From Hippopus hippopus (lineage: Eukaryota > Mollusca > Bivalvia > Cardiida > Cardiidae): a stretch of DNA of 64,000 bases. The notes below the pieces were generated by a model. That model was not told where the DNA came from. It searched no databases and saw nothing but the letters and a program-made list of their open reading frames with translations. The stretch is from assembly GCA_946811185.2 (NCBI GenBank), contig OX328113.1:806001-870000 (forward strand), read 5' to 3'. Position 1 is the stretch's first letter; every line of letters begins with the position of its first letter. Position numbers and translations under genes: made by a program. This document shows positions 18,837 to 60,206 of the stretch, piece by piece.

Positions 18837-18839
18837 AAA

Positions 18840-26641: not shown

Positions 26642-26850
26642 TTAACCCTTTACCACACAATCCCGACTTTTGACAACCCTGAGAAAGAAAACATTGTGGG
26701 AAAAGGAGAAAATGCTGGTAACCAGCATTTTCTCCTTTTCCCATAATGTTTTCTACCCTTTCCAAATCAAATTTCAATTTTTGATTCACATTTATTTTGT
26801 CTTCTGCAAATGCTTTCAATATGGACTAGTCCAAAATTTTGTCATTTGGG
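26642..26850 (-). mobile_element. MITE-1 copy
   Basis: It starts TTAACCCTTTACCACAC with TTAA at 26642-26645. Its palindrome (about 26690-26754) is nearly perfect. The right end is truncated at 'gtcatttggg'. Confidence 0.85.
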
Positions 26851-32358: not shown

Positions 32359-32429
32359 CACTTTCCCAACAACCCAAAGGAAGACAGCCATTAAAAACAT
32401 TCAGAGATAATAAAATGCTGGGTAGATCT
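32355..32429 (-). mobile_element. MITE-1 left half, target of the F1 element
   Basis: TTAACACTTTCCC, then 'gaagacagcc' and 'aaatgctgggta' can be read as a decayed MITE-1 left half. The right half ('ccaacattttctac') follows the F1 element at about 35851-35880. Confidence 0.55.
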
Positions 32430-33599
32430 AATGGTAACAAGACGTTTCGCCCCCAAGACGTTTCCCCCCTGGTCGTTTCGCCTCTATTTTTCACCCCTAG
32501 TTGTTTTGCCCCTGAACCCTAGTCGTTTCGCCCCCAAACCATTTCCTCCCCTAGTCGTTTCGCCCCCAAACAATTTAAGAGAGAAAGAGAGAGAGAGAAC
32601 TGTACGGGTAACAAGACGTTTCGCCCTCAAGACGTTTCCCCCCTGGTCGTTTCGCCTCTATTTTTCACCCCTAGTCGTTTCGCCCCCAAACCATTTCCTC
32701 CCTTAGTCGTTTCGCCCCCAAACAATTTAAGAGAGAGACAGAGAGAGAGAGAGAATGAGCACCTTTAGAGAATAATGGTTCAAAGAATCTTGAATGACAG
32801 TGTATATTAAGAATTATTACAATAATTTTAATCATAATTTTCTATAATGAAGACAGAAAATATATATATATGTTTACCGATGTCAGTTGATCACCTTTTT
32901 CAATTCAATTCAATAAACTTTATTTGTTCCACGTATGTACAACATTATTATTAGTAAATTATATAGTATTACTAGATCTAGTCAGAGAAAATATTTGCGT
33001 CCGGTGTAGGCCACACCAGATAATGAGTTAAATGAGAAATCGATCGTAACGAGCAATATCTCCTTGTTTATTTGGTTTGAGTTATTAATCACACGATGTT
33101 CACGCAATTAATGCAATTCATGCTGAGGTGAGAAAACGCATGCTTTATGCAAAATTAAACGTCTTTAATTATATCATTAGCACCTTTACCAGGTTAGTTT
33201 TTTAAATTGGACGGTTGGTTCTTTAACAGTGTCGATGCGCAATGGTTGAAAAAGGTCAAGTTTTCATAATTGGTATATCTGTTGTTTCAAGAAAATCTTT
33301 TATACACCGACGAAAGGGCTTATCATCATTCATCTTTGAAAATGTTGTACGTTGTGTAAGATACTAGAACGGAATTATGTCAGTTTTGTGCATTTCATGT
33401 CAGGAAGAAGTAAATGGCCGCCGCCAATCTATTTCTCATGATAGGTGTTAGGGATAGCAACATTGGTTTTGTGTTATATAGTTTGATAGCTTGTTTTCGC
33501 CATTGTACTCTCTGCTTTAGACGTTGCATGTTTACCGACGAAACAAAGTACCCGTAAAGCTAAGATTTGAAAAACAACGTGAATATCCGTCCATAGTTT

Positions 33600-33624
33600 A
33601 TCTATCTATCTATCTATCTATCTA
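33600..33624. repeat. (TATC)n microsatellite
   Basis: About six TATC units. They continue after the hAT-like element (34447-34462, CTATCTGTCTATC), so the microsatellite was the insertion target. Confidence 0.85.
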
Positions 33625-34446
33625 CAGTGTTCAATCAAGAGCGCGCCATTGCGCCATAGTCCCCCAAAAATTTCAGATGGCGCAATTCTAAACCAACCTC
33701 GGGCCCGTCGGGCGCATTCAATCGTAACAGTGGCATTTCGTGAATTAGGGTCCTTTTTGCCCGTTTCTGCTTTTTCCGCTCAATAAACATAATGCCGATC
33801 TTTCTAGTGAGAATTTACCGTTAACCTGACGGAGGTTATGGCTAAGATAAAACTGGTAACCCGCTACTGATCTTTGTATCGGACGGTTTCGAGAGAAAGA
33901 CGGGTACCAGAGGTTACGATTCTTTTAGTTTCCGCTGATCATTCAACATTGCAATGAAGCGCTTTTTCTGAGTTTTTTTTTAAGCCTCAATGGCGCAAAA
34001 AAGGCAAAAGCTATTGAAAATATTACTTCAGAAGGCACAATCGGGCCAGTACCTAAGCGTAGTTAGGCGTCGATAATAATACCCCACAGAAACGCGACTT
34101 TCAACTAGAAATGATCGAGGTGAAATTTAAATCCTTCTGTGAAGGGATATCAGAATTTCCAAAAGTTTACCATTGACAGATACATTTCGTCATTTTTTTA
34201 GGATTAAATTAATGGTGGAAACAAGGTTGCGTCAATAACGATGATAATTTCTGCAGTGATGCAGAATTATAAGCATCATATTCATAGATACATGAATGAG
34301 ATTATACTTGTTCAATAAAAAGGTTAACATTTCAGTAAGAAAGAATGATTTTTTTTGTGTGGCCCCCAGTTTTCAAAAATGGCCCCCTATTTCAATGTCT
34401 GTGGGCGCAATTGGCCTTCTTTCAAGCCAAGCTAGATTGAACACTG
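33625..34446. mobile_element. hAT-like element CAGTGTTCAATC, copy 1
   Basis: 822 bp with inverted ends CAGTGTTCAATCAAG (left) and CAGTGTTCAATCTAGC (right, reversed). It is inserted in a TATC microsatellite, so the exact duplication is ambiguous. It shares its length of sequence with 55781-57200 ('ggcgcaattct', 'ccaacct', 'gggcccgtcgggcgca', 'ttccgctgat', 'tggccccctattt'). Non-coding. Confidence 0.82.
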
Positions 34447-35127
34447 CTATCTGTCTATCTATATACTCAATTCTTGATTAAGATTAAAATTCAGTAATGG
34501 AAAAAAAAAAAACATTGAGGGAAAAGAATCATTTATAACTGTATCTCCTTTTGTCATGATGCTGATCACCTATAGTAGACAAGATGATACAGCACATGAT
34601 GCCGATCTGATCTCGTTCTATATCTCTCTTTCACCTTCAAGGTCATCTTTTAAAGGATTAATGCCATCCAAAATTGTTCTCTGGTTGAAAGAGTGCACCG
34701 TGTTGCTGGTCAAAAGGCTTTAGATCACGTGCCATCATAATCCTATTAGGCCCGATTATCAACTCGTTAATTACGTATTACGCAATCCATGTCATTTTAA
34801 TTTTGCTACTGTGAAGTCGCGTAATTGATTACGCAACCCTTTGTCACCTTATGCATTACTTTCAGTACTTTGAAGATACATAACAGTTTTTTTTTTTTTT
34901 AACAAAACATTGATGTGTGCACCAGTTTTTATCAGAAGGCATAGATGCGTTTATATATCTTTATGTAGAAATACAAATTTTTGTGTAAAGAGATTTCACT
35001 GTCTTGATTTATCATTTATACTTCTGAGGTTCATCGGCAAAAAGGTTGATTGATATTGGACAGATAAGTTGTGAACTTTGATCCAGATTTTGCATTTTTC
35101 CTGAAACATGGGTGCACTTAAAAGGGG

Positions 35128-35133
35128 GGAGGG

Positions 35134-35178
<45 letters not shown>

Positions 35179-35215
35179 GAGAGAGAGAGGGGGGAGAGAG
35201 AGAGTGGGAGAGAGA
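35128..35215. repeat. (GA)n purine tract
   Basis: GA repeats with G-runs. Frames reading through it are artefacts. Confidence 0.9.
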
Positions 35216-35261
35216 GGTGCAATACAGGGTAAGACTGAGATTAGTTTTGTCTTCAATAGCA

Positions 35262-35450
35262 TACAATAATCGAAGCAGGGAAGTAGCAGAACATTGGCAG
35301 CAGTTTTACTACAGAGTAAATGCTTGTTACCAGTATTTTACCCTCTTTTCATAGTGTTCGACCATTCATACACTAACATCATAATTTGAGCAACTTTTGA
35401 TACCTTCTTGTTTTTTGTCTGTTAACCGAAAAATTGGTCGTTGTAAAGCT
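35262..35450 (-). mobile_element. Heavily decayed MITE-1
   Basis: 'gaacattggcagcag', 'aatgcttgttaccagtattttacc' and 'tttgtctgttaaccg' keep MITE-1 order. Inside F1. Confidence 0.45.
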
Positions 35451-35879
35451 AGGGTGATCAGTTTCTTTCATTAATAGAGTCTTTTTGCTTTCTTTTAAAT
35501 GTAACTTTTAACCTTTTACCACACGAATAAGAATTTAATTTTTGATAAGGGTCTCATTGTCTTAATTATGCAAATGTTAAAAAAGAAATTGTGAACTATG
35601 TTTACTTACCTGTTTAAAGTTTGAAAAAATATACATGACCATATTCTGATATTTTCCTCATATCACCATTGACCTGCTATAAAAATTTATAAAAGTTCTA
35701 AGGTACAATTCAGTTTTATCTTGTATAGGAGGCGAAATGACTAGGGGGGAAACAACCAGGGGGGGGCGAAACGACCAGTGGGGGCAAAACGACCAGGGGG
35801 GAAACGACCAGCGGGCAAGGTTTTGGGACGAAACGTCCCGGTACTGATCTAACCAACATTTTCTACTTTCTTTCTACAG

Positions 35880-37354
35880 CCTAAGCTGTCTGATAGGGTA
35901 TAAAGCATTAGTTTTGGTGGTTACCAACTATTTATGCCAATAAACCGGTTGGTACGATCAATCCTGGACAAAAAAATCTCGGGGACGAAAAAAACTCGAT
36001 AACAGCGTGCATTTTAACTTTCACAGTGTTTTCAATTTATGATGCTTTCGGTCTCAATATCAGTCTTAGGGAAACCGTTCCATAACAACAACAGTATTCA
36101 AATGATATGTAGATCTAGATCTATTAGAGCAACATTTCTGTTAGTCCTATTCATAAGACCCTACGTACGTTATTTCACATTTTGACATTCATCGTGTACG
36201 TAGGGTCTTATCGGTTCCTTCTTAGGTTTCTTTGGCAAACTCTGACATCGAATTTTGTTGCTGTTTGAGCAACAAATTCGGACACTTAAATTACAAAATG
36301 CCCAATAAAACTTATATCGTAACAAGATAAATCAATATTGAACCGATTTAAAAGACTTGGTTGTAAAAAACTTAAATTTTATGAGTTAAATCTGTTTCTA
36401 TTTTTGAAGTGAAACCGGTGTGTAAGAGTGTAGTTAACGCAAGTAAAAGAATTTTTTTAAACGAAATTCCTATACCTCCATTAAAGTGTTGCAGAAAGGG
36501 GCAACCCTCATTCACAAACATAACTTTGCCTAGAAAGAAGTACTGAATCGTCTAATGGTCCATAACAGACGGTTATAGAGTTTTAAGACTATTTATAAAG
36601 AAAAGAAACGCCGAGAGAATGTCCTAGTAATTTGTCCCAAATCTAGTTCGTTCCAACATATTCTGAATCGATTGCCCGGATTCTTCCTCCAACATGTGTT
36701 TCTGATACTTTCTGGAGTTGGTCTGTTAAATTGAGTGATAACTTTCTTGAATGATTGGTTAAGTGTTACATATCGGATTTTAAGATATTTTATGTGCATG
36801 GCTTTATTTTACGTAGATAAAGACATGGACATAAATGAATGTACGGCAGTAAGGCTGCAAGTATTTATGTAAAATATAACTTTGGCAAATATTGAAAAGC
36901 TTCATTTCATGAAAGAAGAATTAGATCTATCGTCGATCGACGTGTTTTCGAGGGGTGCAAGAACCCGAAATGCATCCCAGTTTTCTTGCGTACTATGAAG
37001 TGAAAGACGTCACCTTTTTGTATGAACCCCTTATTTGAATGCAAACAATAGTTTCACTGCTGTTAATTTAGGAACTGCAACCAAAACAAGACTGTATGCA
37101 TGTTTCTAAAGGAAAGATCGGTTTTCATGGCATTTTTATGACCTTTTTTTGGATCCGATTTTTTTTTTTTTTGTTTGGTCTCCTACGACAGAAAAAAAAT
37201 TTCCAGACTACTCGCTGTTATTACTGAGAGTGAATATTTCCAGCCCTTTTATTACGACACTGAATATTTTCAGGTGATTTATGATAAAGTAGTTTTGAAG
37301 AAAATTCCTAGTCCTCCTTCACAGCTGCTAATAAATTTGATAGAAGGAACCAAA
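35880..37354. other. Intergenic with a 16-bp perfect inverted repeat
   Basis: ATAAGACCCTACGTAC (36153-36168) and its exact reverse complement (36196-36211) could form a stem with a 27-nt loop. It could be a small element end or regulatory hairpin. No gene recognised around it. Confidence 0.5.
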
Positions 37355-37859
37355 ACCGGTATTTCCGCTTAGGGTACACTTACCCCCTGAGCTGTAAATC
37401 TGTGGTTAAGATTTCATATTAGAGGGTTGGACAATAATGGTTCTCAACTACAGCTTAAGCAACCCATATTTATGATTTGCAGCAAAAAACGTCTGTTAGA
37501 TCAAGATAATTGTGAAAATTTTCAGTTTAAAGTAATTAAAAAGCTGAAAAGATGGTCTATAGTCTCTGATCGGGCTAAGTCTAACTGAAGATTCTGTTGT
37601 ATCATGGGTTTCTGCGTTTTTTTGCACCGATCAAATTTTCGTGTCTGTTAATTTATGGATAGGTATTTCCGCATGATTTGACAAAGAAAATGTCAATAAG
37701 GGTGTCAGTTTACTGCAAAACTGTCATTTTACACAAGATAACGGAAAAATGGATTCTTTTTTTTTCTTGCGTGAGGTTTCGCGTGTAGCCAAAATTTATT
37801 ACGTGCATTTCAATTCCACAACTTGATTTTCGCATTAATTTGCTTGAGCAGAAATACTG
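37355..37859 (-). mobile_element. MITE-4 (about 520 bp, core-block element), copy 1
   Basis: Collinear with 44975-45479 and, reversed, with 56184-56706: 'taccccctgagctgtaaatctg', 'ataatggttctcaacta', the core block, then the end ...GAAATACTG. Non-coding. Confidence 0.7.
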
Positions 37860-39161
37860 CAAAATGCATTATTGTTTATTTTCTGGAATTCTAGTGCTGC
37901 TGTCAAGAGGCCAAGGGACGCTAAATTTTACACTCGTCCATCCCGTTCATCGCACTGCAAAAACTGAAGATAATTAACTTAGAACTGTTCATTTATATTA
38001 ACCAAAACAGTTACTTCTAGTGATAGGAAGCATTTTAGTTGAGTTTTGGTATACATTATGTTTTTTCATGAACTTTTCAATAGATATTTAAAGCCACGCA
38101 ATGAGGTCGGGTTTCCCATGTCTAAATTCAGCTCCTGGCACAAGACCGAAGGCTGAATATGTTGTTATCGTTGAATATACATGATTCAAGTAGGGACTAT
38201 GATTATACAGGCATTTCACATTAATTTATGTGGGGATTATGAAAATAATTTTGGTAAACAGAACTTCATTTAAATATTCGTCAAATAAAACCGTCAATTA
38301 AGCCCTTCGAATCGTTGGTCCACCCTGTCACTTATTCGTATTCTGAAATGCATGTTGGACACAGGAAATTGTGCAAAAACACCGATCTTTATGCAATTGA
38401 CAGAGCCAGTGAATTCATAATCGTTACTAAATGCAGTTCAAAATATCTAAAAGGTTAAAAAAAAATTGGTTGCCAAAACCATTGTTACAATCCCGTGGGG
38501 GGTGGGGGGTGTGGGGGGGGAACCCGATTTCATTCAAAAAACCATTCGGAATGTCGGTTCTTTATTTAACCCAAAATATGCTTGTAAATATGGCTGCATT
38601 TGTGTTGGAAAAAGTTACACGATTGAATTCTAGATGAATATATCATGAATGTGGCCCTTTTTCAGAGAGAAAAAAGTAAATTTGTATCCAGTTAAGTCAT
38701 CTTTCATGTTAAGTTCAGCGCTTTTTCAACATTATCTCGGATTTTAGGAAATCGAATTTGCTACATAGAACTAAGTGGGGCCCGTTTAGACGTAACATGC
38801 AAAAGAAAAGTAAAATGTGAAATGTCCGATAGATAAATGTTGAACGGCAAACAAGCATGTGTACGTCTAAATATTTGGACTACATTTCTGTAGGAAAATC
38901 GGGGGCCGCTAAGGGCGATCCCTGGCTGGGGCGACAGGCATGGCGTATCCACGAGTCTGCAAGTACGAGGAAGACAGCAAATAGCCAATGATAACTGGCA
39001 ATTACCGTGTTCCTGTAGATAATACGGGATCACAATATCGAAATATAACAATGAGTTCAGTAGACTTACTTATTATTATGCCTCCCGAGCCGATACAGCT
39101 TCCTCTTGTTCCCGAGCTAGCCTTCCCGCTTGAAAAGTATTGTCCAATTTTGATTGGTTGA
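37860..39161. other. Intergenic with G-run
   Basis: 38496-38520 is a run of G-tracts (GGGGGGTGGGGGG then GTGGGGGGGG) able to form a G-quadruplex on the plus strand. No gene recognised. Confidence 0.5.
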
Positions 39162-40002
39162 AAGGTATACAGTCATTTCGTACCATAACCATTTCGTACC
39201 ATATATTATAGTACCATTTCGTACCAAAGAATTACCATTTCGTACCATAATATTACAATTTCGTACCATAACTTACGAATTCGTACAACATTGATAGTTT
39301 ATTTACCTCACGATTATTAAAATGTATTTTTCAATGAATTTTTAAAAAATGTTGCTTTTATAATTGCAAAAAGTTTTAATAGTTGCATTTGTTGCATACG
39401 TATTTATAAAGTAAATATTCGTTAATCAATTAAAGGAAGCAATCGATGTTTGACACAGTTGATAGATAATTACATTGTTAGGTTAATGTTTGTTACAAGA
39501 TTGGTAATTACAATTTGAAAATAATTTGTTTGGTGTTTGCCTTTAATTATAGAATGTCGAGTGATAGCTGATCATCCGTGTTTGCTAATTGAGTAAATCA
39601 CAACATAATTTTTAAAGTATATATAACCCTTGAATTGTTTCCAAAATTGAAACAGAAATGTCAAATGCAAAAGCGAAAAAATCATCATAGCATCATTCAT
39701 CAATGCATTCATCCATTATGTTTCGTTTATATCTATTATAATCTTGTCTTATATTGCGAGTATTATTAATCAAATAAACTTTTTTACATCCAAGTTCGAC
39801 TGTTATTTTCTATTATCTAAGTAGATTTTCTCAGTGAAATCATGATACAAAATGACCACACATATGGTACGAAATGATAATATCATGGTACGAAATGACC
39901 ACACATATGATACGAAATGGTAATTTCATGGTACGAAATGACCAATCCTATGGTACGAAATGACTGGTACGAAATGGTTATGGTACGAAATGTCCATAAT
40001 TC
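39162..40002. mobile_element. Terminal-array element F2 (motif CATTTCGTACCAT)
   Basis: The left array (39171-39297) has five CATTTCGTACCA-like motifs. The right array (39848-39992) has seven in the opposite direction (TGGTACGAAATG). The outer ends start GGTATACAGTCATTTCG and GGAATTATGGACATTTCG. GTTGAAA flanks both sides (39157-39163 and 40004-40010). The 550-bp interior is AT-rich and non-coding, so this is a non-autonomous member. Confidence 0.75.
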
Positions 40003-40747
40003 CGTTGAAATATGCAAGACATGAAAGGTGAAAGGTCAGAATGAAATTATCAAAGGACTGGTAGTCCTTCAACCTTGAGCACGGATTGTATTACTCGAAT
40101 AAATTGACCTTTTGAAAATGACCTTTATGTAAAGAAAAAATAAAGAGTGAATATTTTTATCATCGGGTATAATAACAGTACAGAAATTCTGTTAACGATA
40201 AATGTCAGGTTTGACCCTTACTGTGCCATGGTCAAAACATGAGAATTTTTTGCGGATGACACAGATCAAAACCAGACAGAACAGAAAGTGCTTCTTAGGT
40301 CTATGTCACCTGCCACGTATTACCAATTTAAACCAACAAAATCATGTTTATTTCAGGTATTTTAAGTATTCTTTCAAGACACGATAAATCTATTAGCCGC
40401 ATAAAATGTTGAAATACGTTGACATAGTTCCCTCATTACCGACATATATGACAAAATTTTTCTAACGGACAGATTTTTTTAAAACTTTGCACGTACAAAG
40501 CTCATCAAGTCACTAGGAGATTACAGTTAAAATAGATGTGGGTCACTATGCTCGTTTCTGAGAAATTTTCCTTTGAAAAAGGTATATATACAGTTCCAAA
40601 GCTCAGCTTACTTTCGATTTTAAGCGTTTTTCTTTATTAGTCACTTATATAGGAAAATTACAGACGAAATATACAAATATAGTTACATCATTTTAATGAA
40701 AATTCATATATTTTCACACAAAAAATATTTAAAGGCCTGGTTTTGAG
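40003..40747. other. Intergenic with MITE-3 debris
   Basis: 40258-40315 resembles a decayed MITE-3 centre ('acagatcaaaaccagacagaa'). Nothing else recognised. Confidence 0.4.
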
Positions 40748-42385
40748 GGGATGCGGTCAAAACGTACCCAAACCAAAACGTACCCAAAATATAAGTCAAA
40801 ATGTACCCAAAAATAAAGTCAAAACGTACCCAAAGTAAAATTTCCTATGTACCAATTTCAGTGTTAGATATACATTAAAAATGTCATGTTTTTTACCTTT
40901 TCAGGGTGGTTTAACTCCAAACTCACTTTATATGCTTTCAATTCTTTAAAAAGAAGCATGTTTTCAGTCCCAAGGTACATTCAATTATGGGTGACGCGTT
41001 TTTGTCAGGACTAATCAGCTGTAACAAACTAGTGATCATTTAACAGTTTTATTTTCATAAAAGGTAATTGGACATTTTGTTACATAGTATTATGTATATT
41101 TAAACCCCTCCCTTTTTTTAAGGTTAACAAAAATAACTTAGATCTAGTCAATTTAAGTTTGAAATGAAAATGTTTGATACAATTAATTGAACATGTTTTT
41201 TCCCACTAAAAAGCGCAGGTTACCTTTAATTACACTATCCATAGTATCAACAATCCCTCTGAAAAATGGCTTTTCAAAACACTGTGGGAAAAGGAGAAAA
41301 TGCTGGTAACAATTTTCTACATTTCTCATAATGTTTTTTACCTTTCCAAGCCTTATCTAGTATGATATTTGCAAATGTTTTCAATCTTCAAGAGTCAAAG
41401 ATTTTATTGTTTGGTAAAGAGTGAAGTTCAAAATATTTTCAGTGCAGAATATACCTTATAATATCTCCCCCTCCAAAAAAAGTTTAACATTTTAATTCAG
41501 TGAAAAAATGATATAATTGATACTGGTAATGATATATAGGTGTAATTGAGTCACTGCTCTTAGACAACCAAATTTTTTACTTGTCCATATTTAAAGAATT
41601 TCCAAATGATAAAAATGTTACAAAAAAGAACTTCCAAAGGGTAGAAATGGAAAATATGAGAAAAATTTTCCATCAGCTCATTTACTAAATTTTAAAAAAA
41701 CAACCCTTCGGTTTTTCATCTGAACCAAACTGTCTCTCAAACCATAAAAATATTTGCAATGTAATTTTATTACCATGCAATCTACAACAGTTTAAAGACC
41801 ATTGTGAATAATTAATTTATTCACCACATTTAATTTGTTACACTCTTTTTGAGTGTGCAAATTGCAACTTATCTATCCAAACAATGTAATCAATGTATCA
41901 CATTTCTTTAACTGTTATATCATTGCTTTAAATGTGTTGATGCTTATGAATTTTTTTTTTTTTTTTTTTTTATAAAACATATCTTGATAATGATGGATAA
42001 ATATATCAAGGTATCTGATGCTTTTTTCATTAATAGCAATTGTATCTTAAGAAAGAAAGACATGGTTTTATCATGAAGCATTTAATTGACTTCGCTATGT
42101 AATATGTTTCATCATTGGTTTTAATCATGGAAGGCAAATTTAAAATAATGCAGAATTAAAAATCGTCAACATCAAGATGGTGATTTCATAATTTCTATTA
42201 ATTTGTACAAAGATTGAAGATAAAAATACTATAAAAATCGTGGGTACATTTTGACTTCACATTGGGTACGTTTTGACTCCACTTGGGTACGTTTTGACTT
42301 CACTTGGGAACGTTTTGACTCCACTTGGGTACGTTTTGACATGGGTACGTTTTGGTTTGGGTACGTTTTGACTGTACATAATCCT
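40748..42385. mobile_element. Terminal-array element F3 (motif GTCAAAACGTACCCA)
   Basis: The left array (40756-40843) has four motifs. The right array (42241-42374) has seven in the opposite direction (TGGGTACGTTTTGAC). The outermost 31 bp of the two arrays are identical in inverted order, including the hybrid spacer AAACC. Only a weak TTTGA flank is visible. The interior is AT-rich and contains a decayed MITE-1 (41235-41430) and a poly-T run (41950-41971). Confidence 0.75.
41235..41430 (-). mobile_element. MITE-1 copy inside F3
   Basis: 'aaaacactgtgggaaaagga' then 'aaatgctggtaac', with the opposite arm shortened. It ends 'gtttggtaaagagtgaa'. Confidence 0.7.
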
Positions 42386-42464
42386 TTGATATATATATAT
42401 TTACCTTAAAACCCTGATTGCTGTTTGTTCTGCTGTAATTAAAGTCGGTTTTCTTTAGGTACGT

Positions 42465-43289
42465 ATTTCATTTCCATCTTACCAGTCCTGCCTAATCATA
42501 ATTTTATTAGATAACCGTGTAACAAACTTAGTAAAGTAAGTACATACTAAAATTGTCGAACAATCCATTAAATCCGTTTACTTCATTCATAATTTGCATA
42601 TTGATTACATTCTGCGGTTTGTAAAACGTCAGTAATTAGCACAATTAAATGTGTTCTTTCATCTCCATCTTACCAGTCCTGCACAATGGGATATCAAATT
42701 TTTTACTGTATTTCCATTGCGTACTTTCCAATTTTCCATTTCGCCATCTAAGCATACCTGTATAACGGAGAAAATATCGCTACAATTACTTTTTTTAGTG
42801 GTACAAAAATATTATATTATGTTTATACTTGTCGATGAACCTAATTAAAGGTCAATTATTACAAATAAACACATTTAAATCATATGTGGTTACTTTAATT
42901 TAACAAGTTTTATATATTTCCATTGCGTACTTTCTTTTCCTTTCCCTCAGCCTCGCGCAATTGAAATTTTAAAGGAAGTTTCATCATCTGTGTCCTCAAT
43001 AGGATAAAAAAAAAATTTGAAAAAAAAATTTGTTTCAAGTAAATATCCATTTCAGACTGACAAAATCTGGACTTTAAAAGTTGCTTTGAGTACTGTGTAT
43101 TTTACTAAGTTGAACTTAGTAAATTTTCCGTTTCGCCATCTGAGAATACCTGCATCATGGAAAAAATATCACTAGGAATACATTTTTCAACGGTACTTGT
43201 AAAACATTATTTTTTTGCTTATACCTGTGGATAAACCTTATTAAGGATAAATGAGTAATTTATACGTTTGAAATCATACATAGTTAAAT

Positions 43290-43356
<67 letters not shown>

Positions 43357-43815
43357 CCATTGCGTACTTTCTTTTCCATTGCACCAGTCCTGTGCAATGG
43401 AAATTTGCGAGATCCAAGTTTCAACATCTACACAGATATTAAAAAAAGTTTCAAAATTTATGCTTCAAATAACTATCCATTGAAAACAAAACACACACAT
43501 TTAACACTATAACCCACGTTTTTGCTATAATATATTGTACATGTATTAGATTGAATCTGGTAAATTTTCCATTACACCATCTGGGAATACCCGCAAAAAG
43601 GTAATAAATATCACTACAAATACATTTTGTTAGCGGTACAAAAACATAATTTTTGGTTTTTACCTGTATATTTACCTTATTAAAGATAAATGAGTACAAA
43701 TAAACGCGTTTGAAATAAGTTACATTTACTCTATTCAATAAGATAAACATAATATATTTCCATTGCGTACATTCTTTTCCATTGCGCCCATTGCTCTATA
43801 ATATTTCCATTGGGT
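42465..43815. repeat. Tandem units of about 400 bp with CATTGCGTAC motifs
   Basis: Three diverged units share 'ttttccatttcgccatct', 'atacctg', 'gaaaatatc.cta' and 'attaaagataaatgagta', with starts near 42730, 43122 and 43564. Each unit is followed by TTTCCATTGCGTAC, some with CCATTGCGCCC. The motif layout resembles the terminal arrays of F1-F5. No inverted partner array was found in the window. (TA)n(TG)n lies at 43292-43352. Confidence 0.65.
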
Positions 43816-44369
43816 GTCAGGAGAAATCGTCCTCTGGAGAAATCGTCCCCTGGAGAAATCGTCCCCAAACTGCATGGGGACGATTTCTCTGGAGAAATCG
43901 TCCCCTGGGAACGAATTCTCTGGAGTTAAATTTGGAGATATCGTCCCCATCCCCATTTTCAAAATTCATATAATCATATTGTTGTTAAAGTTGTCTTTGA
44001 AAAACATTTTTGAAGTTTTTTTTCTTGTTTCAGTATTTACTTTGTGTAACGTTCTTCAGTCTAGAGCTATTTGATTACACTGTCATTGTTTATACAGCAA
44101 TTTTCACACTTACAAGTTGTTGTTAACGCCTGTCACGCCTTCCACAGGTAGCTTTACACCTGAAAGGTTTTTAAATTTTCTGTTTGTTTGAATTGGATTT
44201 TAAACCAAAGCAATTACGAAATATATATCTTCATAAAACAGTAGTCATGCGGTCATTAATTGGAATCAATATCTCTCTCCCTCCCTCTCTCTTTCTCTCA
44301 ATCGGCATGGGTCTTTCATGTATTATAATGGGTGTCAGTCCGTAGAATTCTCTCTCCGTATATCTCTGT

Positions 44370-44594
44370 CTCCGTATCTCTTCTCTTCTCTCTCTCTCTC
44401 TCTTTCTCTCTGTCTCTCTCTTCTGCTATCACTTCGCAAGGAATATTAATTTTTGTTTTATTTATCTGAATTTTACGACCGTAGATCTGTCTTTATCGTC
44501 GTAGATCCCCCCGTCTCTCAATCATTCAACATGAGGGTGTTAATTTATTTTTTTTCAGTATTTTTTTTTTCCGTCCGTTGATCTCTCGATCTCT

Positions 44595-44645
<51 letters not shown>
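44370..44645. repeat. (CT)n microsatellites
   Basis: Two CT runs, 44375-44420 and 44597-44641. Confidence 0.9.
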
Positions 44646-44646
<1 letters not shown>

Positions 44647-44974
44647 GGGTTACTATATAAATATTTTTTTTTTTTGTATTGGGTTCTTTTTTTAAATAGT
44701 CGGTTTTTTGTTTCATTTCGGCCTTTCGATCGTGAACGTTTTCATTGACTTGATCACCACACAAGAGTGTTTCTGGACACTGATTTCTGTATTCTCTACA
44801 AGTAAACATTTTCTAGACGATTCCATGTTCAGAAAACACTAACTGAAAAGGCTGGTTTACTTGCAGTCTACACATAACTTTCCTGCCCTTGTAAACGTAA
44901 ATTTCCGGACAGTACTTTACAGAAATTTCGAAAACGTCCCTGAAAAGGAGGAAATACGTTTAACCAGCTCTAGG

Positions 44975-45479
44975 ACTTTCTTGTTCCCGTGCATTTTACC
45001 CCCTGAGCTGTAAATCTGGGGGTAAGATTTCATATTAGAGGGTATGACAATAATGGTTCTCAACTAGAAGTAAAGCAATTAATATGGATAATCATCCAAA
45101 AGTCTGTTATATTAAGATATCTGTGGAAATTTACTGATTAAATTCATTAAAAAGCTGAAAAGACGGTCTGAAGTGACTGATCAGACAATGTCAAAAGGAA
45201 CATTTTGTTGTGTCATGGGTTTCCGTGTTTTTTGCACCGAGTTTTTTTGCATGTGTGTTAATTTATAGATAGGTATTTCCGGGTGATTTGACAATAATTT
45301 ATCAATACGGGTAGCAATTAAGTTCAAATCCTGTCATTTTACACAAGTTAAGCGGATAATAGCCCTTTTTTCCTACGTTTTTTTTCTTACGTGAGGTCTC
45401 GATTGTAACCAAAATTTGTTACGTGAATTTCAATTTTATAATGTGATTTACGCACTAATTTGCGTGAGTGGGAACACTG
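44975..45479 (-). mobile_element. MITE-4, copy 2
   Basis: It runs from 'taccccctgagctgtaaatctg' (44999) through the core block to GTGGGAACACTG (45479). Inside F4. The left end is not sharp. Confidence 0.7.
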
Positions 45480-46192
45480 ATAAGCCTTTCATTAATAGGG
45501 AAATAATTTATGTACTTAGTTCTTCGATGAGAGGATGAACCTTTGTAACAGTCACTAAAATCAAATAAGCATAATCAATTTCTCTTGCCGACTGATGAGA
45601 GAGACAGAGAGGCAGAGAGGCAGAGAGACAGAGAAACAGCCAGACAGACAGACAGGTGTTCGGACAGGAACCCATATACATTGCATAAATTTATCCTTGC
45701 CGTATGAAGGAGAGGTAGAGGGAGATGCAGACTCATAATTTTAGTATTAAAATACATTTAACGACCGAAAAAGTACTGTTATAAGAACATAAATACCTTT
45801 GTTTTAAAATCAAAATCAGCAAGTAGAACTTTTTAAAAATCGTTCAGGTGTAAAGCTGTGACAAGTGTGAACAACAACTTGTAAGTGTGAAAATTGCCGT
45901 ATAAACAATGACAATGTAATCAAATAGCTTTTGACTGAAGAAAATCGTCTCACAAAGTAAATACTAAAGCAAAAAAAAAAAAACTTCAAAAATGTTTTTC
46001 AAAGACAACTTAAACAACAATATATTTGAATTTTGAAGATGAGGACGATATCTCCAAAATTTAATTTGGGGACGATATCTCCAGAGAATTCGTCCCCAGG
46101 AGCCGATTTCTCCAGAGAAATCGTCCCCAAGCAGTTTGGGGACGAATTCTCCAGGGGACGAATTCTCCAGGGGACGATTCCTCCAGCATTCT

Positions 46193-46489
46193 TTAGGCCT
46201 ACCGCGGCCGAAATATTGCGTTTTCTTGGCGCCATTTGGTTTGTTTAATGGAGGCATTCTTAACCAAACAGAGTTATTTTTTGCGCATTATAACACCGCA
46301 CGTAGACTGAACGCCGTTGTCATTTCCCTATCATTCAATATTAAATCCTTTGACATGTTATATAATTGTTTGTCTTTCGTAAAAACTTACAGCTAACAAA
46401 AGTTTTCATAACACCGTGGAACACATTCTTACTGGGTTGCAGTCAACGTATTTAAAAAAAAAAACAAGCACGCTGTATCCAAGTAAAAC
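46193..46489. other. Short intergenic stretch
   Basis: Nothing recognised. Confidence 0.35.
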
Positions 46490-46673
46490 ATGTCAAGAAC
46501 CGGGAAACATTACAAAAAGTTTGTTAAAAGGGCTGCAGATGATAAAGGCCAGCGCAGCCTTTTTACTTTCGGCGTGAAACGTTCGAATTCTTTGCAGATC
46601 GATCTACAGGTAATCAAATCTCCACATACTGAGTCTCAATCTGAAGTGCCGGTTCTGTCAGGCATCGCCGATC
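46490..46673 (+). pseudogene. Open frame interrupted by the F5 element
   Basis: The ATG at 46490 opens a frame beginning MSRTGKHYKKFVKRAADDKG. It contains RSLFTFGVKR, a pattern like the N-terminal leader of several transposase-derived proteins (inference, weak). It runs in frame into the 9-bp duplication TCGCCGATC. If F5 and one duplication are removed, the frame continues at 52788 for about 45 more codons (first residues LPLSEDHTTG) before a TAA. The insertion thus probably broke a coding sequence. The function is unknown. Confidence 0.45.
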
Positions 46674-48160
46674 GGGTAAGACTAGATACCGAAAATAGCC
46701 TATTTTCGCGAAAATAGCTTCCTTGTACGAAAATAGCTGCCATTAATTGTTGTCTGGATGTATGTTTGAATATATTGCTTTTATTTGTTATTTTTATATA
46801 CTATCTTTCATAATATATATTGATGACGTGTTGAAAAAGAGTGAATTGAAATTAATTGATCTTAACAGAGGTTTTATACAAATGAACTATGCATATGCAT
46901 AGCCCATTTTCGCGAAAATAGCTTCCCTGTACGAAAATAGCTTCCATTAATTGCTGTCTGGATGTATGTTTGAATATACTGCTTTTATTTGTTATTTTTA
47001 TATACTATCTTTTATAATATATATTGATGACGTGTTGAAAAAGAGTGAATTGAAATTAATTGATCTTAACAGAGGTTTTATACGAATGGACTTATGCATA
47101 TGCATAGCCCATTTTCGCGAAAAACAAACTTTCCCTGTACGAAAATAGAATCCATTAATTGATGTATAAATATGTGGTTGAATACATTGCTTTTATTTCT
47201 CTTTTTTTTTTTTTTTTACATTATCTTTCACTACATACCAGAAACGTATTTAAAGGCGTGAATTGTAGTTTATAGATCTTAAAAGAGTTGTTATATGACC
47301 GGAATGTACATGAATAGATCTGTATCAAATGTTTTTTTCTAATATCTTCGAAAACAATTGATTAACACGTCTTTTTTTCAAAATATGACACTAGATTTTC
47401 ATCTTAAGTTCTTTGTATTTGTTCGGTTTTTGTAAACATAATTAATCTATGGACAACAATGTGGAAAATAAACAGGAAATTGCTAATTACGAAGCACAAC
47501 AAATTCTAGACAGCTGCAACAAAAATAGCACATTACAATTCCAAAAGTAGCCCTATTGCAAGTTACTTTTGATAAATGTATAGATCTCTATTTTCTTTTT
47601 CTTTTAAATATGAATATGAACATGATAATGGTTTAATTTGTAGTACAATAATGGAAATAATTATTATCTATTGAGCTATAGCAAAGCACCAAATAGAAGA
47701 CTGAAAACGATTATCGTAAGTGTGACATCGATAACAAATCATTACCAGAGGTGTTATAAACCAATCAAACTATTTTCTTACGTTCGTCTGATAAAACTAT
47801 TTTCGTGATGACTCCCTATTAACACAAGCTATTTTCGTTAGGTTCCTATTTTTGTATCGAATGGGGGGAGTTATTTTCGTAGTCAGGAGAAAAATCAATT
47901 GAGAAAAAAAAATCGTGGAAAGAGGCCGCAGTCACAGGCAGTTTTCACTGGCAGAGTTATATTTTTCAACTGGCCAAGACCGGTTGAAAAAGGGAAAATG
48001 CGGGTAACCTGAACTTAATATCCTTTCCGCATTTTTTGGACACTTGCAGAAACCAGGCCTATTATTTCATTTGCAACTTGAGGATACAACATGCAAAGAA
48101 GTGGTTTCATTGCGGGGAAAATGAGAAAAAGCTATATAATAACAATGCCTATTGAAAATG

Positions 48161-48215
48161 GGGGTCCTGCTTGGCTTAGTGGTAAAGTGTAGGACCAGTA
48201 ACTTGAACGGTGTAT
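48161..48215 (+). mobile_element. tRNA-like A-box region, SINE fragment
   Basis: GGGGTCCTGCTTGGCTTAGT followed by GGTAAAGTGTAGGACC resembles the 5' half of a tRNA. No B-box follows. Confidence 0.4.
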
Positions 48216-48804
48216 TCTACGACGAAAATAGCATAATTTACATTTAAGAAAATAGGCCTGGTACTAGTTTTCTTTTGATTAAAATATATAAATTGATTTT
48301 AATTTATTCCTTCTTCTTTTATTGATATACGAAATATAACATGATAATGGTAGAAACATGATATCTGACAGACAGAATTGTATAATTTGCAGTATCAACG
48401 ATAAACCAAAACATAAAATAGAAGAAATTGATTATCGCATATTTATAGAAAGTGTGACATTGATAACACATCATTACCGGAGGTGTTATATCCGATCAAA
48501 AGTTTCTTTAAATCACGGGTTGAATTAATTGCAATAAAAAAAAAATTAATGTTTTTACCTCCCAATCAAGAAGTAAATTAGTACCATATAAATAAAAGAA
48601 CTTGATATATAAGAATGATAATGAAACAATATAGAGATTGTACAAATTTAGAATGTACCTTCGCAAGCTGTTTTCGTATATTCATGTGATTAAGTTTTTT
48701 TCGTCGTAACTTACTGTTGGTCCTTAACCTTTTAAAATAGATGAATTAATCTTTCCAGCCGATGATAATAATTGTCCTTTTCTATTTCAAAATTTATTGT
48801 TGGT

Positions 48805-48925
48805 GGTGGAATAGTATAACCTTATCTGACAGTATATATCAAAGGTCATACTGGAGGTTCTGTGCAGTGCAGCGATGTTAATCTACACTGTCTGCAAAGA
48901 AATCTGCGCTTATGAGCCTAAAGGT
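48805..48925 (+). mobile_element. MITE-3 fragment
   Basis: 'ttatctgacagt', 'ctacactgtctgcaaagaaa' and 'atgagcctaaaggtta' keep MITE-3 order. The centre is decayed. Confidence 0.55.
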
Positions 48926-49071
48926 TACCTTAGTCTATTTTTATTCAAAGATTGCTATTTTCGTATCGAATGGGATAAACTGTTTTCGTGTAAAAAAAAA
49001 AGAGAGGGAAATAAACTCATGAAAAGTAGCTGCGAGCACATGTTATTTGCAATTGAAGAGTGATGTTTTAG

Positions 49072-49200
49072 AGGGGCTCAGCCAGGTAGAGCAGTCCATA
49101 GCACACAGGACTTAAACTTGGCCGCTGGTTCGAGTCCCAAGCTCAGAAAATTTCTGTCCGAGGATTGATGCTACTCTGGAGTTTTCAGAAAAATATGTAA
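49072..49200 (+). mobile_element. tRNA-derived SINE fragment
   Basis: The head has a D-arm GCTC/GAGC and a B-box GGTTCGAGTCC (49128-49138). It is followed by 'aatttctgtccgaggattgatg', nearly the same tail as the SINE at 55535-55774. Confidence 0.65.
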
Positions 49201-49235
49201 GATATATAAGAAAATAGCGATCATCTTTTGAGATA

Positions 49236-51347
49236 CAGTCGAGCCGCGTTAATCCAGGCTCCAAATTTCCGGAAATCTCAAGATCCGGAAAAAAACATCA
49301 GGGAACGAATATTTTCTGTACAAATTTTACTTTTTATTCCGGAAATCCGTGTTCCGGAACCGGAATGGAAAAATCGGGAACGAAGGGTTAAAAAACAATG
49401 TAACTCTTTATCAGATAAACCGGACGTGGCCTGACTGTGCATCACACAATTTCCCCGGTACGTGATTTTGGACTGGTCCATAGTATGCATTTGTAACACG
49501 AGTATCAGTCTAGTATCAATTTATTTCAGATGGTTTTCACACATTTGAAAACAAACGTCTTAATTAGATGTTGTTTGGGAAAAGTGTTAATAGACATACA
49601 CGTGCCATCGTTAAGTGTCAGTTTGACAGATTATCAATACCTTTTCAGATCAAAGATCAGACCAGATATTCTGTCTACAGACTGATCTTGATCTACACAG
49701 GCCGCATATAAGCAACTTATGTTTTGAAAGGTTCTTGAAGGGCTTAATCTTTTTTGGCTCTTTGATGCTATACAAGCAATATCTCCTTTTTTCGTTATGT
49801 TTTCAAAGGTCACCTTCTGCAGAAGTAACTGAGGGAAATGGCTTAAGTTGTAACTGTGTTCTCCCTCTTAGAAAAATAGATCTAAAATAAAAATAAAAAA
49901 ATACGCAACCTCGTATTCCTTTTCTCTATTTATCAGTAATCCATTTATATTTAACACCAAAGCATTAATTATCGTATGCATTTTTTTTTGTTTTGGCTTT
50001 GAGCGATTTTTATATGAAAACAGCCAAACTTTTTTTTCTGCCGACTACACAAAACACGTGACATGACAGCCCAGGTGTTCAAGTAACAACCTTTACTAGA
50101 TGCAAAAAAGCATTAGCAGCTAATGTAAAGCAGGCATGATATTAGCTTATTGTGTGGTCATTTTGTATTGACTGGCAGTCTGCTTGTAGCAGGGTGTAAT
50201 TTTCTTGGAGCAAAACAGTTGTAAATATGTACAACAAACGCTTGCACTACAACCCTCTCGCTTCGAATGATTTGCACATTACATCAGACCCATGATCTTA
50301 ATTTTAACTCTTTATCACATGACAAACAGAGAAATGACTGGTCTAAATGTAAAGTATTTGCGGAAGACAATTTAAATGTAGTTAAAATGACATAATTTGT
50401 CTTTAACTGCGTAGAAAACATTATTGGAAAAGGAGAAAATGCTGGTTACCGTCACTTTCTCCTTTTCCAACAATGTTTTTGAAAGGCCTTTTCCTGAGGG
50501 TCTTTAAAAGTCGACATTGTGTGGTAAAGGGTTAACACTTGTGTACCCGCAACAGGCTTGAAATCGTTGACAGATGGCTTGTTTTACATTTTTGGTTATT
50601 CAAAATTACTCTGCCGATTGCAAAATGGCGGACGGTGTGGATAGACATCAGACTAAACAGAACACGCTGTCTGATCTTGGATCTACACCATCCACAGCTC
50701 TAACTATGACTTAACTCGTATCGGAAAGCAACTTCTTGTGGGCCAAAAGTGGTAAGAAAATACTGAAAACGTGTAGATTATTTCAAAACTGAAAACACGC
50801 CGAATCTGTTGATCAGCTACAGTTATGATCCCGTCACCGGTTGTAAAAATAGAACAAAATTTTGTCGGATATTACCCTTATTATTTCGGACACACATTCC
50901 ATACAAGTCTCTCGAAATTGAAAAATCAACAGTAATACTGTAATAAAAAAAAAAACAATTGTACTTGTGTTTCGCCCCCGCCCCTTTTTCGTGGCGTTTT
51001 TAAAAGTCATAATGTGCTGAGCTTTACAAGCTCACCCGTTTGTACAAAAGTTATACATGTACATGTGTATGCAATAAGGTATAAAGGGAAATTCGTGTAC
51101 AAAAAACACATTAAAAAAAATAGCAAAATGCACATTTATGACATTTTATTCTATTATATATCTGAACAATCGTAGGAAAAATACAGAGAAGTGCTTGTGT
51201 AAATCATACGCTATTGTAATTCCTACGATGCACAGTGTCCCTTATCAACATGGAAGTTGTGGGATCCCAGTTCACTGGTCCGGAAATACGGCTTATCTGG
51301 AAACATACGTAGGCAACAGAAGCGTCCGGATAAACGAGGTTCGACTG
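49236..51347. mobile_element. pogo/Tigger-like element nested in F5
   Basis: The ends are CAGTCGAGCCGCGTTAATCC (left) and CAGTCGAACCTCGTTTATCC (right, reversed), with TA on both sides (49234-49235 and 51348-51349). The left subterminal region carries repeated TCCGGAA motifs (49270-49360), and the right carries TCCGGA (51280, 51326). 2.1 kb. No transposase frame is visible. It contains MITE-3 debris (49640-49745 and 50620-50725) and MITE-1 (50304-50535). Confidence 0.75.
50304..50535 (+). mobile_element. MITE-1 copy
   Basis: TTAACTCTTTATCACAT to GTGTGGTAAAGGGTTAA, TTAA at both ends. The palindrome at about 50413-50477 has a variant tip (GGTTACCGTCAC). Confidence 0.88.
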
Positions 51348-51451
51348 TATACTATTTGATTTCTACAAGCACTTTGATTTGTGTGGAGTTTAACTATTCA
51401 TGGCTTGGCAAAGATATAAGGTAATGAATTAAGATAAGAATCGACACTTAC

Positions 51452-51517
51452 CTCACACAGGATACAGTGATCGTCACAAGTATCTCTACAAACACCACAT
51501 AAAATTAAATCTGACAT
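51452..51517 (-). CDS. Possible first coding exon, cysteine-rich
   Basis: On the minus strand an ATG at 51517 opens 22 codons, MSDLILCGVCRDTCDDHC then ILCE, ending in a strong donor (GAG then GTAAGT). The spacing C7-C10-C14-C18-C21 looks like part of a zinc-binding domain. It lies inside F5 but outside the nested pogo-like element, so it may be the start of F5's own protein, transcribed leftward. No following exon was found, and a chance frame cannot be excluded. Confidence 0.35.
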
Positions 51518-52787
51518 TTTGCACATCAAACATTAAACAAACGTATAAACGATTATTCAACATTGACCCCATCTTATATATCAGCTATTGATCGGTAAAT
51601 TTAAGACAAATGATTAAAAACTAGTTTAAGTAAAACTCCCAGGAACCTAAAGGGATACCAAAAAGGACTGCCGCATATTTAATGAATGTGCGAAATTAAT
51701 TAAAGGATTATTAGTAAAGGTATTATAATCCAATTATAAGTGATCAATACAGTTCGGAAAAGTCCGAGTCACATTAAAGCTGATTGACGGATCCCGGTAT
51801 TGCCCCCTTCCAAAGACAAAGTGATCAGCCATGGATTAAGACAATACACATGATATTATGCACATGTATTACAGGAAAAAATGTAAATGAGATATCGAGA
51901 AGTTTTTAAAAAATAACTTATCAAGGGCTAATTTTAATTTGTCAGGTGAGAAAACTATTTTCGTGGTAACTGGTTTCAATCTATTTTCATGCGGCCAGAT
52001 GATAAAAAAATATTTTCGTGAAAAATGTATACGAACAAACAAATGATATCTTTGCAGCAAAATAAACATTCAAAGGTTATTTTTTTATTGTAATGTGATG
52101 AAGCTATTTTCATAGATAGAAGTTGCAAGCTATTTTCGTGAAAACTGTATACAGACAAAAGCTATTTTCGTATAAAGAATGCTAGCGAGACAGAAATTTA
52201 TTTCTTGTATATAAGGTTTTGGTGTTTACCTGTCAGGTGTGAAAACTATTTTCGTGGTAACTGGATTCAATCTATTTTCATGTGGCCAGATGATAAAAAA
52301 ATATTTTCTTGAAAAATGTATACGAACAAACAAATGATATCTTTGCAGCGAAATAAACATTCAAATGTTATTTTGTTACTGTAATCTGATAAAGCTATTT
52401 TCGTAGTAATAAGTTGCAAGCTATTTTTGTGAAAATTGTATTCAGACACAAGCTGTTTTCGTACAAAGAATGCTAGCGAGACAGAAATTTACTTTTTGTA
52501 TATAAGGTTTTGGTGTTTACCTGTTTTTACCTATAAAAAATGAGGTTCATACAAAGTGAATCAAACATAAGAATAAAAGCTATTTTCGGGGAAAGAAATT
52601 CTTTCAAACTCTCACCAAATACCCATTGGTGGGTATTTTTTACATTATAGTATTCTCTGCAACAAACATACAATGAAACTGGTCGTCGATACACAGGTTA
52701 TGCCAGGCGAAAAGCTATTTTCGTAGAGGGAAAGCTATTTTCGCGAAAATAGGCTGTTTTTGGTATCTAGTCATACCGTCGCCGATC

Positions 52788-55780: not shown

Positions 55781-57200
55781 CAGTGTTCAATCTAGAGCGT
55801 GCCATTGCATCATAGGCCCCCTAAAGTCCCAGATGGCGCAATTCTGAACCAACCTTGGGCCCGTCGGGCGCACTCGATCGTAAAAGTGCCATTCCACGAA
55901 TTGGGGTCCTTTTGTCTGTTTCTATTTTTTCCACTCAAACATAATGCCGAGCTTACTAGTCTAGTAAGAATTTATCGATACTCAGACGGATAGACTGTTA
56001 TCGGTCTTCGTGTCAGAGTTTTGGCAGAATAACGGGTACGAGAGGTTACGATTTTTTCAGCATCCGCTGATATTTCAATATTGCAATGAGGCGATTTTCT
56101 GTATTTTGGAAGTCTTAATGGTACGAAAAAAGGCAAAAGTTGTTTAAAATATTATTTCAGAAAGCACAATTGGGCCAATTCCTAGTGTTCTACAGGCGCA
56201 GATTATTGCGTAAATCACGTTATAGAATTGAAATTCACGTAACAAATATTGGTTACACGGGAGACCTCACGTAAGAAAATACATGGACAAAAAAGGCCAT
56301 TATCCGGTTATCTTGTGTAAAATTACAGGTTTTGAAGTTACTTGTTATCCTTATTGGCAAATTTATGTCAGATCATGCAGAAATACTTATAAATCCAGAA
56401 ATTAACAGACATGAAAAATTGATTGGTGCAAAAAACGTGGAAACCCATGACACAACAAAATGTCTTTGACATTGTCCAATCAGAGTCATTTCAGACGCCT
56501 TTTCAGCTTTTTAATGACTTTAAGTAGTAAACTTACAGAGATATCTTAATATAAGAGACTTTTTTGCTACAAATCATCAATATGGATTGCTTTACCTCTA
56601 GTTGGGGACCATCATTGTCGTATCCCCTGATACAAAATCTTACCCCCAAGATTTTCAGCCCAGAAGGTAACTGTACCCTTGAAATAAAACGCTAGTGAGA
56701 ACACTGCAGTACCTACCCCTCCAAGCCAAGACAATAATACACCACAGAAACGCAAGTTTCAACCAAAATGGCACCCGGACGATCGTTTCAAAAGTTGGTT
56801 AGTTTATGATGAGAGAATTTAACTCTACTTTGAGGGATCGACAGGAAAGTTAAATCTCTGTCTGATGGGATATCAGAATTTTCAGAAGTTTACCACTGAC
56901 AGACATATTTCGTCATTTTTCTTTTCTTTTAGGCTAAGATTAATGGTGAAATCAAGGTTTCGTCAGTCACAATGATGATTTCCGCAGAGTTGTAGTTTTA
57001 TAGGCATAGTATTCATAGATAAATGAATGAGAATATACTTGTTAAATAAAAAGGCAACACTTGTTAAATAAAAAACGTTAACATTACGGTAATGAATTAC
57101 AATTTTTTATGTGTGGCCCCCCGTTTTCCAAAATGGCCCCCTATTTTAAAGTCTGTGGGCCCATTTGGCCCCCTTACAAGCAAAGCTAGATTGAACACTG
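55781..57200. mobile_element. hAT-like element CAGTGTTCAATC, copy 2, 6-bp TSD
   Basis: The ends are CAGTGTTCAATCTAGAGC (left) and CAGTGTTCAATCTAGC (right, reversed). CTTACT lies on both sides (55775-55780 and 57201-57206). Without the nested MITE-4 (56184-56706) it would be about 890 bp, close to copy 1 (822 bp). Non-coding. Confidence 0.87.
56184..56706 (+). mobile_element. MITE-4, copy 3, with 8-bp TSD and known empty site
   Basis: 523 bp with ends AGTGTTCT and AGAACACTG. The flanks are CAATTCCT (56176-56183) and CAGTACCT (56707-56714), two mismatches in eight. The uninterrupted relative at about 34046-34053 reads CAGTACCT once, which is the empty target site. It contains the core block in reverse orientation relative to 37355-37859. 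Confidence 0.82.
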
Positions 57201-59984: not shown

Positions 59985-60206
59985 CATATCCACACAATCC
60001 CTGATTTCCATGGCCCTAGGAAAAAAGGCTTTTGAAAACATTGTGGGAAAAGGAGAACATTCTGGTAACCAGCATTTTCTCCTTTTCCCACAATGTTTTC
60101 TACTATATCAGAGTCCTAAAGTTAATTTGTACCAATATTGAATTTGTCATCTGTAGATGCTCTCACTGTAGAAGACTCTAAAATTTATTGCTTGTGAAAG
60201 GGTTAA
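59985..60206 (-). mobile_element. MITE-1 copy, sharing TTAA with the next
   Basis: The palindrome lies at about 60035-60100. It ends GTGAAAGGGTTAA (TTAA 60203-60206), which is also the start of the next copy. Confidence 0.82.

Follow-up and report, generated by a model that had tools for sequence, protein, structure and literature searches.

Five transposon-like elements, F1 to F5, lie within about 20 kb of one another in a 64,000-nucleotide stretch of the Hippopus hippopus genome (assembly GCA_946811185.2, contig OX328113.1, positions 806,001 to 870,000 of the forward strand; hereafter "the window"), and their inverted ends carry arrays of a short site that is usually centered on CG. This observation is real, and the elements are mostly well bounded. 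We consider it probable that F1 to F5 are non-autonomous Mutator-like elements (MULEs) of the "type 2 foldback" kind, whose arrays are likely transposase-binding sites and whose enzyme would be supplied in trans. A MULE is preferred because the target duplication flanking F5, identical at nine of nine positions, has the length that MULEs produce, and because the 16-base pitch with which the arrays begin matches that of the known element Muta1.

Detection of the arrays

Inverted arrays of short motifs had been proposed for these elements from inspection of the sequence, and a de novo detector to which the proposed coordinates were not supplied recovered them. A word (length 7, 8 or 9) counted as a match if three or more copies lay clustered and its reverse complement formed a cluster of its own 0.2-8 kb downstream. 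At word lengths of 7, 8 and 9 it yielded 30, 19 and 12 matches, respectively, all inside F1 to F5 and none elsewhere in the window. Paired inverted clusters were present in all five elements, F1 being detected at word length 7 only and F4 at 7 and 8. The same procedure returned no match in 60 Markov-simulated control windows (20 per word length).

Organization of the F1 to F4 ends

Read from the tip inward, each end of F1 to F4 consists of a tip of 11-13 bases (measured in F1 and F2, and assumed by register in F3 and F4), followed by a series of 11-base sites. When up to three mismatches were allowed, the left and right ends contained 14 and 6 sites in F1, 6 and 8 in F2, 4 and 7 in F3, and 5 and 6 in F4, which has additional copies in the opposite orientation. 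The site consensuses are GTTTCGCCCCC (F1), ATTTCGTACCA (F2), AAAACGTACCC (F3) and AAATCGTCCCC (F4). These share the core NWWW-CG-YNCC, and their remaining letters are specific to each family, in agreement with the original prediction that the motif differs from element to element. The same prediction gave the motif as 12-15 bp long and irregularly spaced, which needs correction on both counts. The site is 11 bases long and is usually preceded by C (16 of 20 sites in F1, 12 of 14 in F2 and all 11 in F3) or, in F4, by G (11 of 11). Near the tip, its spacing is regular: in seven of the eight F1 to F4 ends, sites 1 and 2 begin 16 bases apart, with a 5-base linker between them. Only the right end of F1 departs from this, its second detected site lying 29 bases on. 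Deeper in the arrays, the pitch in F2 and F3 is mostly 20-25 bases.

The sites are also distinguishable from the DNA around them. Mean pairwise identity among the sites of one element was 0.80 in F1, 0.94 in F2 and 0.95 in F3, while the five bases upstream and downstream were less alike (0.56 and 0.35 in F1, 0.50 and 0.38 in F2, 0.68 and 0.49 in F3); the linkers of F2 and F3 vary both in sequence and in length, from 3 to 14 bases. Because the letters of the site are better conserved than the five bases flanking it, the sites of F1 to F3 are not simply satellite copies. The central dinucleotide is CG in 44 of the 56 sites of F1 to F4, and it is replaced by TG or CA in seven (4 of 20 in F1, 1 of 14 in F2, 2 of 11 in F3 and 0 of 11 in F4), which is what germline methylation of the CpG cytosine would leave. 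Five of the 20 F1 sites have CC at this position, a change that methylation does not explain.

Borders and target duplications

Target duplications were sought around every end in a wide search, with 400 random pairs of places as background; no strand is assigned to any of the features given below. F5 (46674..52778) is flanked by TCGCCGATC at 46665..46673 and 52779..52787, with nine of nine bases identical, a score reached by 0.75% of the random pairs. F1 (32432..35845), whose left array occupies 32432-32740 and whose right array occupies about 35729-35845, lies between two copies of GATCTAA (32425..32431 and 35846..35852; 7/7). F2 (39164..40003) lies between two copies of GTTGAAA (39157..39163 and 40004..40010; 7/7). 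Taken alone, these 7-base duplications are weak, with 13.5% of random pairs scoring 7. The coordinates of F1, F2 and F5 were taken from the duplications, and the left end of F1 also recurs elsewhere with a sharp outer border, at the level of protein (see below). The borders of F3 (about 40747..42382) and F4 (about 43812..46191) come from array register only; the inverted arms of F4 are some 320 bases long (43820-44141 vs 45853-46184). Within the left end of F1, the terminal block is tandemly duplicated (32433-32598 vs 32607-32750, 84% identity), giving the element two left tips, the second at about 32607.

F5 differs in construction

The single design ascribed to all five elements applies to F1 to F4, which have a common layout, but not to F5. 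The GGTAW tips of F5 resemble the left-end tips of F1 and F2 and are followed by a palindromic stretch, CCTATTTTCGCGAAAATAGC; its arms hold tandem units of 204 and 291 bases. Words of the CTATTTTCG type (at most one mismatch) are scattered over F5, 27 on the plus strand and 11 on the minus strand, and occur 25 times in the rest of the window. The inverted arrays of F5 are clean near the ends only. A nested inverted-repeat element (49236..51347; CAGTCGARCC..., with TA flanks), pogo/Tigger-like as classed by eye, lies within it.

Relatedness among the families

Both the site consensuses and the tips suggest that F1 to F4 belong together. The mutual alignment of the consensuses is better than that of random 13-mers taken from the window: only 0.4% of 3000 random sets reached the observed score, or 0.5% when a CG was required; with F5 added, 1.2% did so. 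CG falls on CG in five of the six F1 to F4 pairings, the best pairing of F1 with F3 being on opposite strands. Similarity between the tips of different elements averaged 0.84, vs -1.42 (standard deviation 0.47) for random sets, none of 1000 of which reached it; this test is partly circular, as register was used to place the F3 and F4 tips and the bases immediately ahead of the site count as part of the tip. With the same reservation for F3 and F4, GG occurs within the first three bases of eight of the ten tips, and GGTAW stands at four of the ten. In all of these comparisons, the consensuses and tips were picked after the arrays had been seen, and the left and right ends of an element do not count as independent observations. 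The original prediction of one transposase type, whose site evolves as an array, is thus consistent with F1 to F4, which look like a single type by consensus and tip, but the different layout of F5 sets that element apart.

The contrast between F2 and F3 is the closest. Their consensus sites agree at seven positions and differ at positions 2, 3, 4 and 11, where F2 has T, T, T and A (in 13, 14, 14 and 14 of its 14 sites) and F3 has A, A, A and C (in 11 of 11 each), so that these four of the 11 positions show one exception in 25 sites. In all four F2 and F3 arms, AACC stands before site 2 but before none of the others. Although this is a single comparison, with one copy per element, the pattern suggests that the letters of a common array design were altered together.

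Recurrence of the F1 end

An open frame that crosses the left array of F1 was translated and compared with 5.8 billion proteins, a comparison of protein letters only. Seven matches were found, with E values from 3e-16 to 1e-2; the contigs that carry them are 0.8-7 Mb long and may come from the window's own species. In six of these (P0001-P0006), the match begins at VTG, which corresponds to VTR in F1 and is read there from GTAACAAGA within the tip. Identity among the six upstream of this point was 0.04-0.17, vs 1.00 over the first three tip residues; at least 25 upstream residues are present in four of the six (P0002, P0003, P0005 and P0006), and in P0001 and P0004 the match is preceded by MV alone. 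The interior that P0001-P0004 have in common differs from that of F1, and P0005 and P0006 end soon after the array, too short for their interiors to be compared. The seventh, P0007, lacks VT, differs otherwise, and is a weak match (E 0.0099). At the level of translated sequence, then, an F1-type end recurs, in unrelated flanks where flanks are present, with a sharp border at the predicted tip.

Exact two-site patterns were also sought in viral contigs, where two stretches were found for F2, one for F3, and none for F1 or F4. These three stretches (L001-L003) hold two or three neighboring sites with no inverted partner array in the stretch, and we attribute them to chance or to unrelated repeats. 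The F3 two-site pattern was absent from the prokaryote genome contigs searched.

A proposed mechanism

We infer the type of transposase, its binding to the arrays, the movement of the elements in trans, and the co-evolution of enzyme and site. A MULE transposase encoded elsewhere in the genome would act in trans on F1 to F5, its DNA-binding domain (a FLYWCH zinc finger in the closest relatives) loading on several sites of one end. It would bind the oppositely oriented array at the far end as well, drawing the two ends together; after cleavage beside the GG-rich tip, reinsertion would create a target duplication of 7-9 bases. A single site being short and common, the enzyme would recognize its own family by the multiplicity of sites. 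If the binding domain changed, the array would follow, slippage and gene conversion carrying matching sites throughout both ends; the tip and linkers would persist while the sites switched, as F2 and F3 suggest.

A further elaboration is that F1 to F4 represent one transposase lineage that has re-specified itself, with the letters swapped in every site of its two end arrays and the tip, register and linkers kept. F2 and F3 would then be a switch caught in progress (ATTT becoming AAAA ahead of the shared consensus CGTACC, and the A after it becoming C), and the near-invariant CpG would let methylation gate binding to the whole array. We regard this as speculative and rather unlikely in full.

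Weighing the alternatives

The anatomy of the ends conforms in several respects to what is expected of type 2 foldback MULEs. Inverted ends with multiple short direct subrepeats are found in F1 to F4, with F5 having larger units of mixed orientation, and long inverted ends with short subterminal repeats, a frequent but not universal trait of MULEs, are present. The target duplications are less uniform: MULEs make 8-10 bp, and F5 has nine bases, F1 and F2 have seven, and F3 and F4 have none that is convincing.

A number of results weigh against assigning the five elements to MULEs with binding-site arrays. (i) The duplications of F1 and F2 fit seven bases, where MULEs usually make 8-10, and neither is significant alone; F2, moreover, has a higher-scoring, off-register alternative, TGAAAGGT (8/8). 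(ii) The search around the ends yielded for F3 only the off-register, AT-rich ATATTTA (7/7), and for F4 nothing that scored above 6. (iii) In F4, the five bases upstream of the site are more alike (0.96) than the site itself (0.85), as plain tandem copying gives, the downstream five being at 0.33. (iv) The site words in the left half of F5 are mixed in orientation, 12 plus and 10 minus before the nested element. (v) Translated frames across the F3 and F4 arrays, the two searched besides that of F1, gave no protein matches. (vi) No MULE, P-type/THAP or other transposase signal was obtained in a Pfam search of 10 of the 39 open frames of at least 60 amino acids that the five elements contain (9 in F1, 11 in F4, 19 in F5, and none in F2 or F3). 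The only Pfam row from these 10 was DUF4094, at an E of 0.13, below its cut-off; eight of the frames submitted were from F5, and six of those eight overlap the nested element in whole or in part. As judged from these 10 frames, a transposase is likely absent from F1 to F5.

The 7-base duplications of F1 and F2 could indicate that the design and mode of binding are as proposed, but that the transposase, at least for F1 to F4, comes from the P/Galileo, hAT or Dada group. Galileo makes 7-bp duplications and Dada 6-7-bp ones; P elements, however, have CA tips and hAT elements YAGNG, whereas the tips here are GG-rich. In addition, F5, whose tip also has GGTA, has a 9-base duplication, and the 16-base pitch fits Muta1. 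Galileo, a member of the P superfamily, does have long, internally repetitive terminal inverted repeats with three binding sites for its THAP domain, but two of those sites sit in long direct repeats rather than in an array of short units (PMC3688188). Overall, a transposase of one of these kinds seems unlikely to us. Elements from two other groups were considered and rejected for the window. Helentrons and Helitrons, some of which bear satellites, have neither target duplications nor inverted ends, and here inverted clusters occur in all five elements and F5 has its 9-base duplication. Kolobok is described as making a TTAA duplication, and KolobokP as combining 3-5-bp duplications with long terminal direct repeats (PMC9587614); the duplications of F1, F2 and F5 are 7-9 bases long and not TTAA, and the ends are inverted, the duplication evidence leaving F3 and F4 undecided.

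Two other explanations would deprive the arrays of their principal role in transposition. The arrays might be ordinary minisatellites expanded within unrelated inverted-repeat elements, with no role in binding. Tandem repeats are common in the window (58 rows, overlapping rows included), tandem expansion is evident in the F5 arms and in the duplicated tip block of F1, and the upstream bases of F4 are at least as conserved as its site. Against this, F1 to F3 keep the letters of the site while the linkers vary in sequence and length, clusters with inverted partners are confined to F1 to F5, and the site cores agree across F1 to F4. We therefore hold this explanation to be improbable, and a reading of the arrays as lone microsatellites is likewise disfavored. 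Alternatively, the main user of the arrays might be an anti-silencing protein encoded by the element, comparable to VANC in the VANDAL transposons, which are MULEs, rather than the transposase. The central CG and its replacement by TG or CA in some sites would suit such a role, but the CC sites of F1 do not follow from methylation, and the arrays of F1 to F4 adjoin both tips in near-fixed register, as transposase sites would. VANC proteins are not known outside plants. What they bind, short motifs within tandem repeats, varies from one related family to the next (PMC5735166); even so, an anti-silencing function strikes us as very improbable, and binding by a MULE transposase remains the reading we prefer.

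Comparison with known systems

The original prediction held these elements to be an undescribed radiation, which is right only in part, as MULE families of the mosquito Aedes aegypti already show the same plan. In that study (PMC5225508), 14 families are described, all with 8-9-bp duplications and 13 with a FLYWCH domain; 12 have terminal inverted repeats of more than 100 bp, and 10 of these 12 have subterminal repeats of 9-15 bp. Muta1, which moves in yeast and is termed a type 2 Foldback, carries a 12-bp repeat nine times, separated by spacers of 3-4 bp, a pitch of 15-16 bases compared with the first pitch of 16 in F1 to F4. As in Muta1 and Muta5, whose inverted ends have a short terminal motif and then a subterminal repeat of 12 or 15 bp in several copies, the arrays here follow a tip; the Aedes families also have many non-autonomous derivatives, with heterogeneous interiors (PMC5225508). 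Unlike the Aedes families, for which transposases are identified, none was found in the F1 to F5 frames searched, and the duplications of F1 and F2 are 7 bp. A CpG-centered core common to four families, and a pitch that goes from 16 to mostly 20-25 bases inward in F2 and F3, also distinguish the window from those families.

Tm1, a Mutator/Foldback element of root-knot nematodes, is similarly built of tips followed by variable numbers of a short repeat, with non-autonomous copies that resemble miniature inverted-repeat transposable elements. Its 7-bp tips differ between the two ends, its repeat is 13-15 bp, and its duplications are mostly 9 bp; it differs from F1 to F5 in having one repeat consensus with other letters and an identified Phantom-type MULE transposase (PMC3169594). 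The VANDAL elements of Arabidopsis and their VANC proteins resemble the present case in having arrays of short, protein-bound motifs that diverge between related families together with the binding protein, but those motifs serve anti-silencing and are reported to lie in non-coding regions rather than in inverted ends (PMC5735166). Galileo shares the presence of several demonstrated transposase-binding sites in repetitive inverted ends; it differs in having three sites, of which two fall in long direct repeats and the third about 70 bp from the end, and in its THAP domain (PMC3688188). Tetris of Drosophila is a foldback element with repeats of about 220 bp and 8-10-bp duplications (PMC4079207).

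Within molluscs, a survey of MULEs lists mollusc groups, and the words "tandem" and "foldback" are absent from its main text (PMC6446971); bivalve transposable-element surveys also report MULEs (PMC10294476, PMC8905726). Judged by titles and the beginnings of abstracts, with subscription papers and Repbase outside the coverage, no mollusc study of array-ended MULEs was found among the papers listed.

The array-ended plan is thus already known from mosquito and nematode, and the divergence of motif arrays from plant VANDALs; what the window adds is a register common to four families and the contrast between F2 and F3. The window suggests that this genome, too, has the mosquito and nematode plan, and ends of this sort are readily classed as minisatellites. 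How transposases and their binding sites co-evolve while staying functional is an open problem, for which four adjacent families with a common first pitch, a CpG core and distinct fixed letters would offer a natural series. The interest of that series would grow if concerted switching of sites between families proved true.

Interiors and other repeats in the window

The interiors of the five elements had been described as unrelated, and this is mostly so, except that F3 and F5 each hold one copy of a dispersed palindromic repeat. This repeat is about 210 bases long, has a near-perfect 66-base palindrome as its core, and occurs at 22 places in the 64 kb (for example, 896-1105, 26642-26842, 50335-50535 and 60020-60400). 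F1 contains a nested element with CAGTGTTCAATC ends (33625..34446), a related copy of which is at 55781-57200; by eye, copies with these ends have 6-base repeats, CTATCT and CTTACT, at or beside their ends. A separate 480-base dispersed repeat is found at 37371-37859, at 44996-45479 (within F4) and at 56197-56679 (within the 55781-57200 element).

Outside the elements, a plus-strand open frame of 624 amino acids (21063-22937) resembles, by eye, a hAT/ZBED transposase and is flanked by tandem repeats of about 160 bases (19617-20059 and 23420-24336). A 145-base satellite extends over 57555-59714 in 14.9 copies and is related, in inverse orientation, to 18345-18840.

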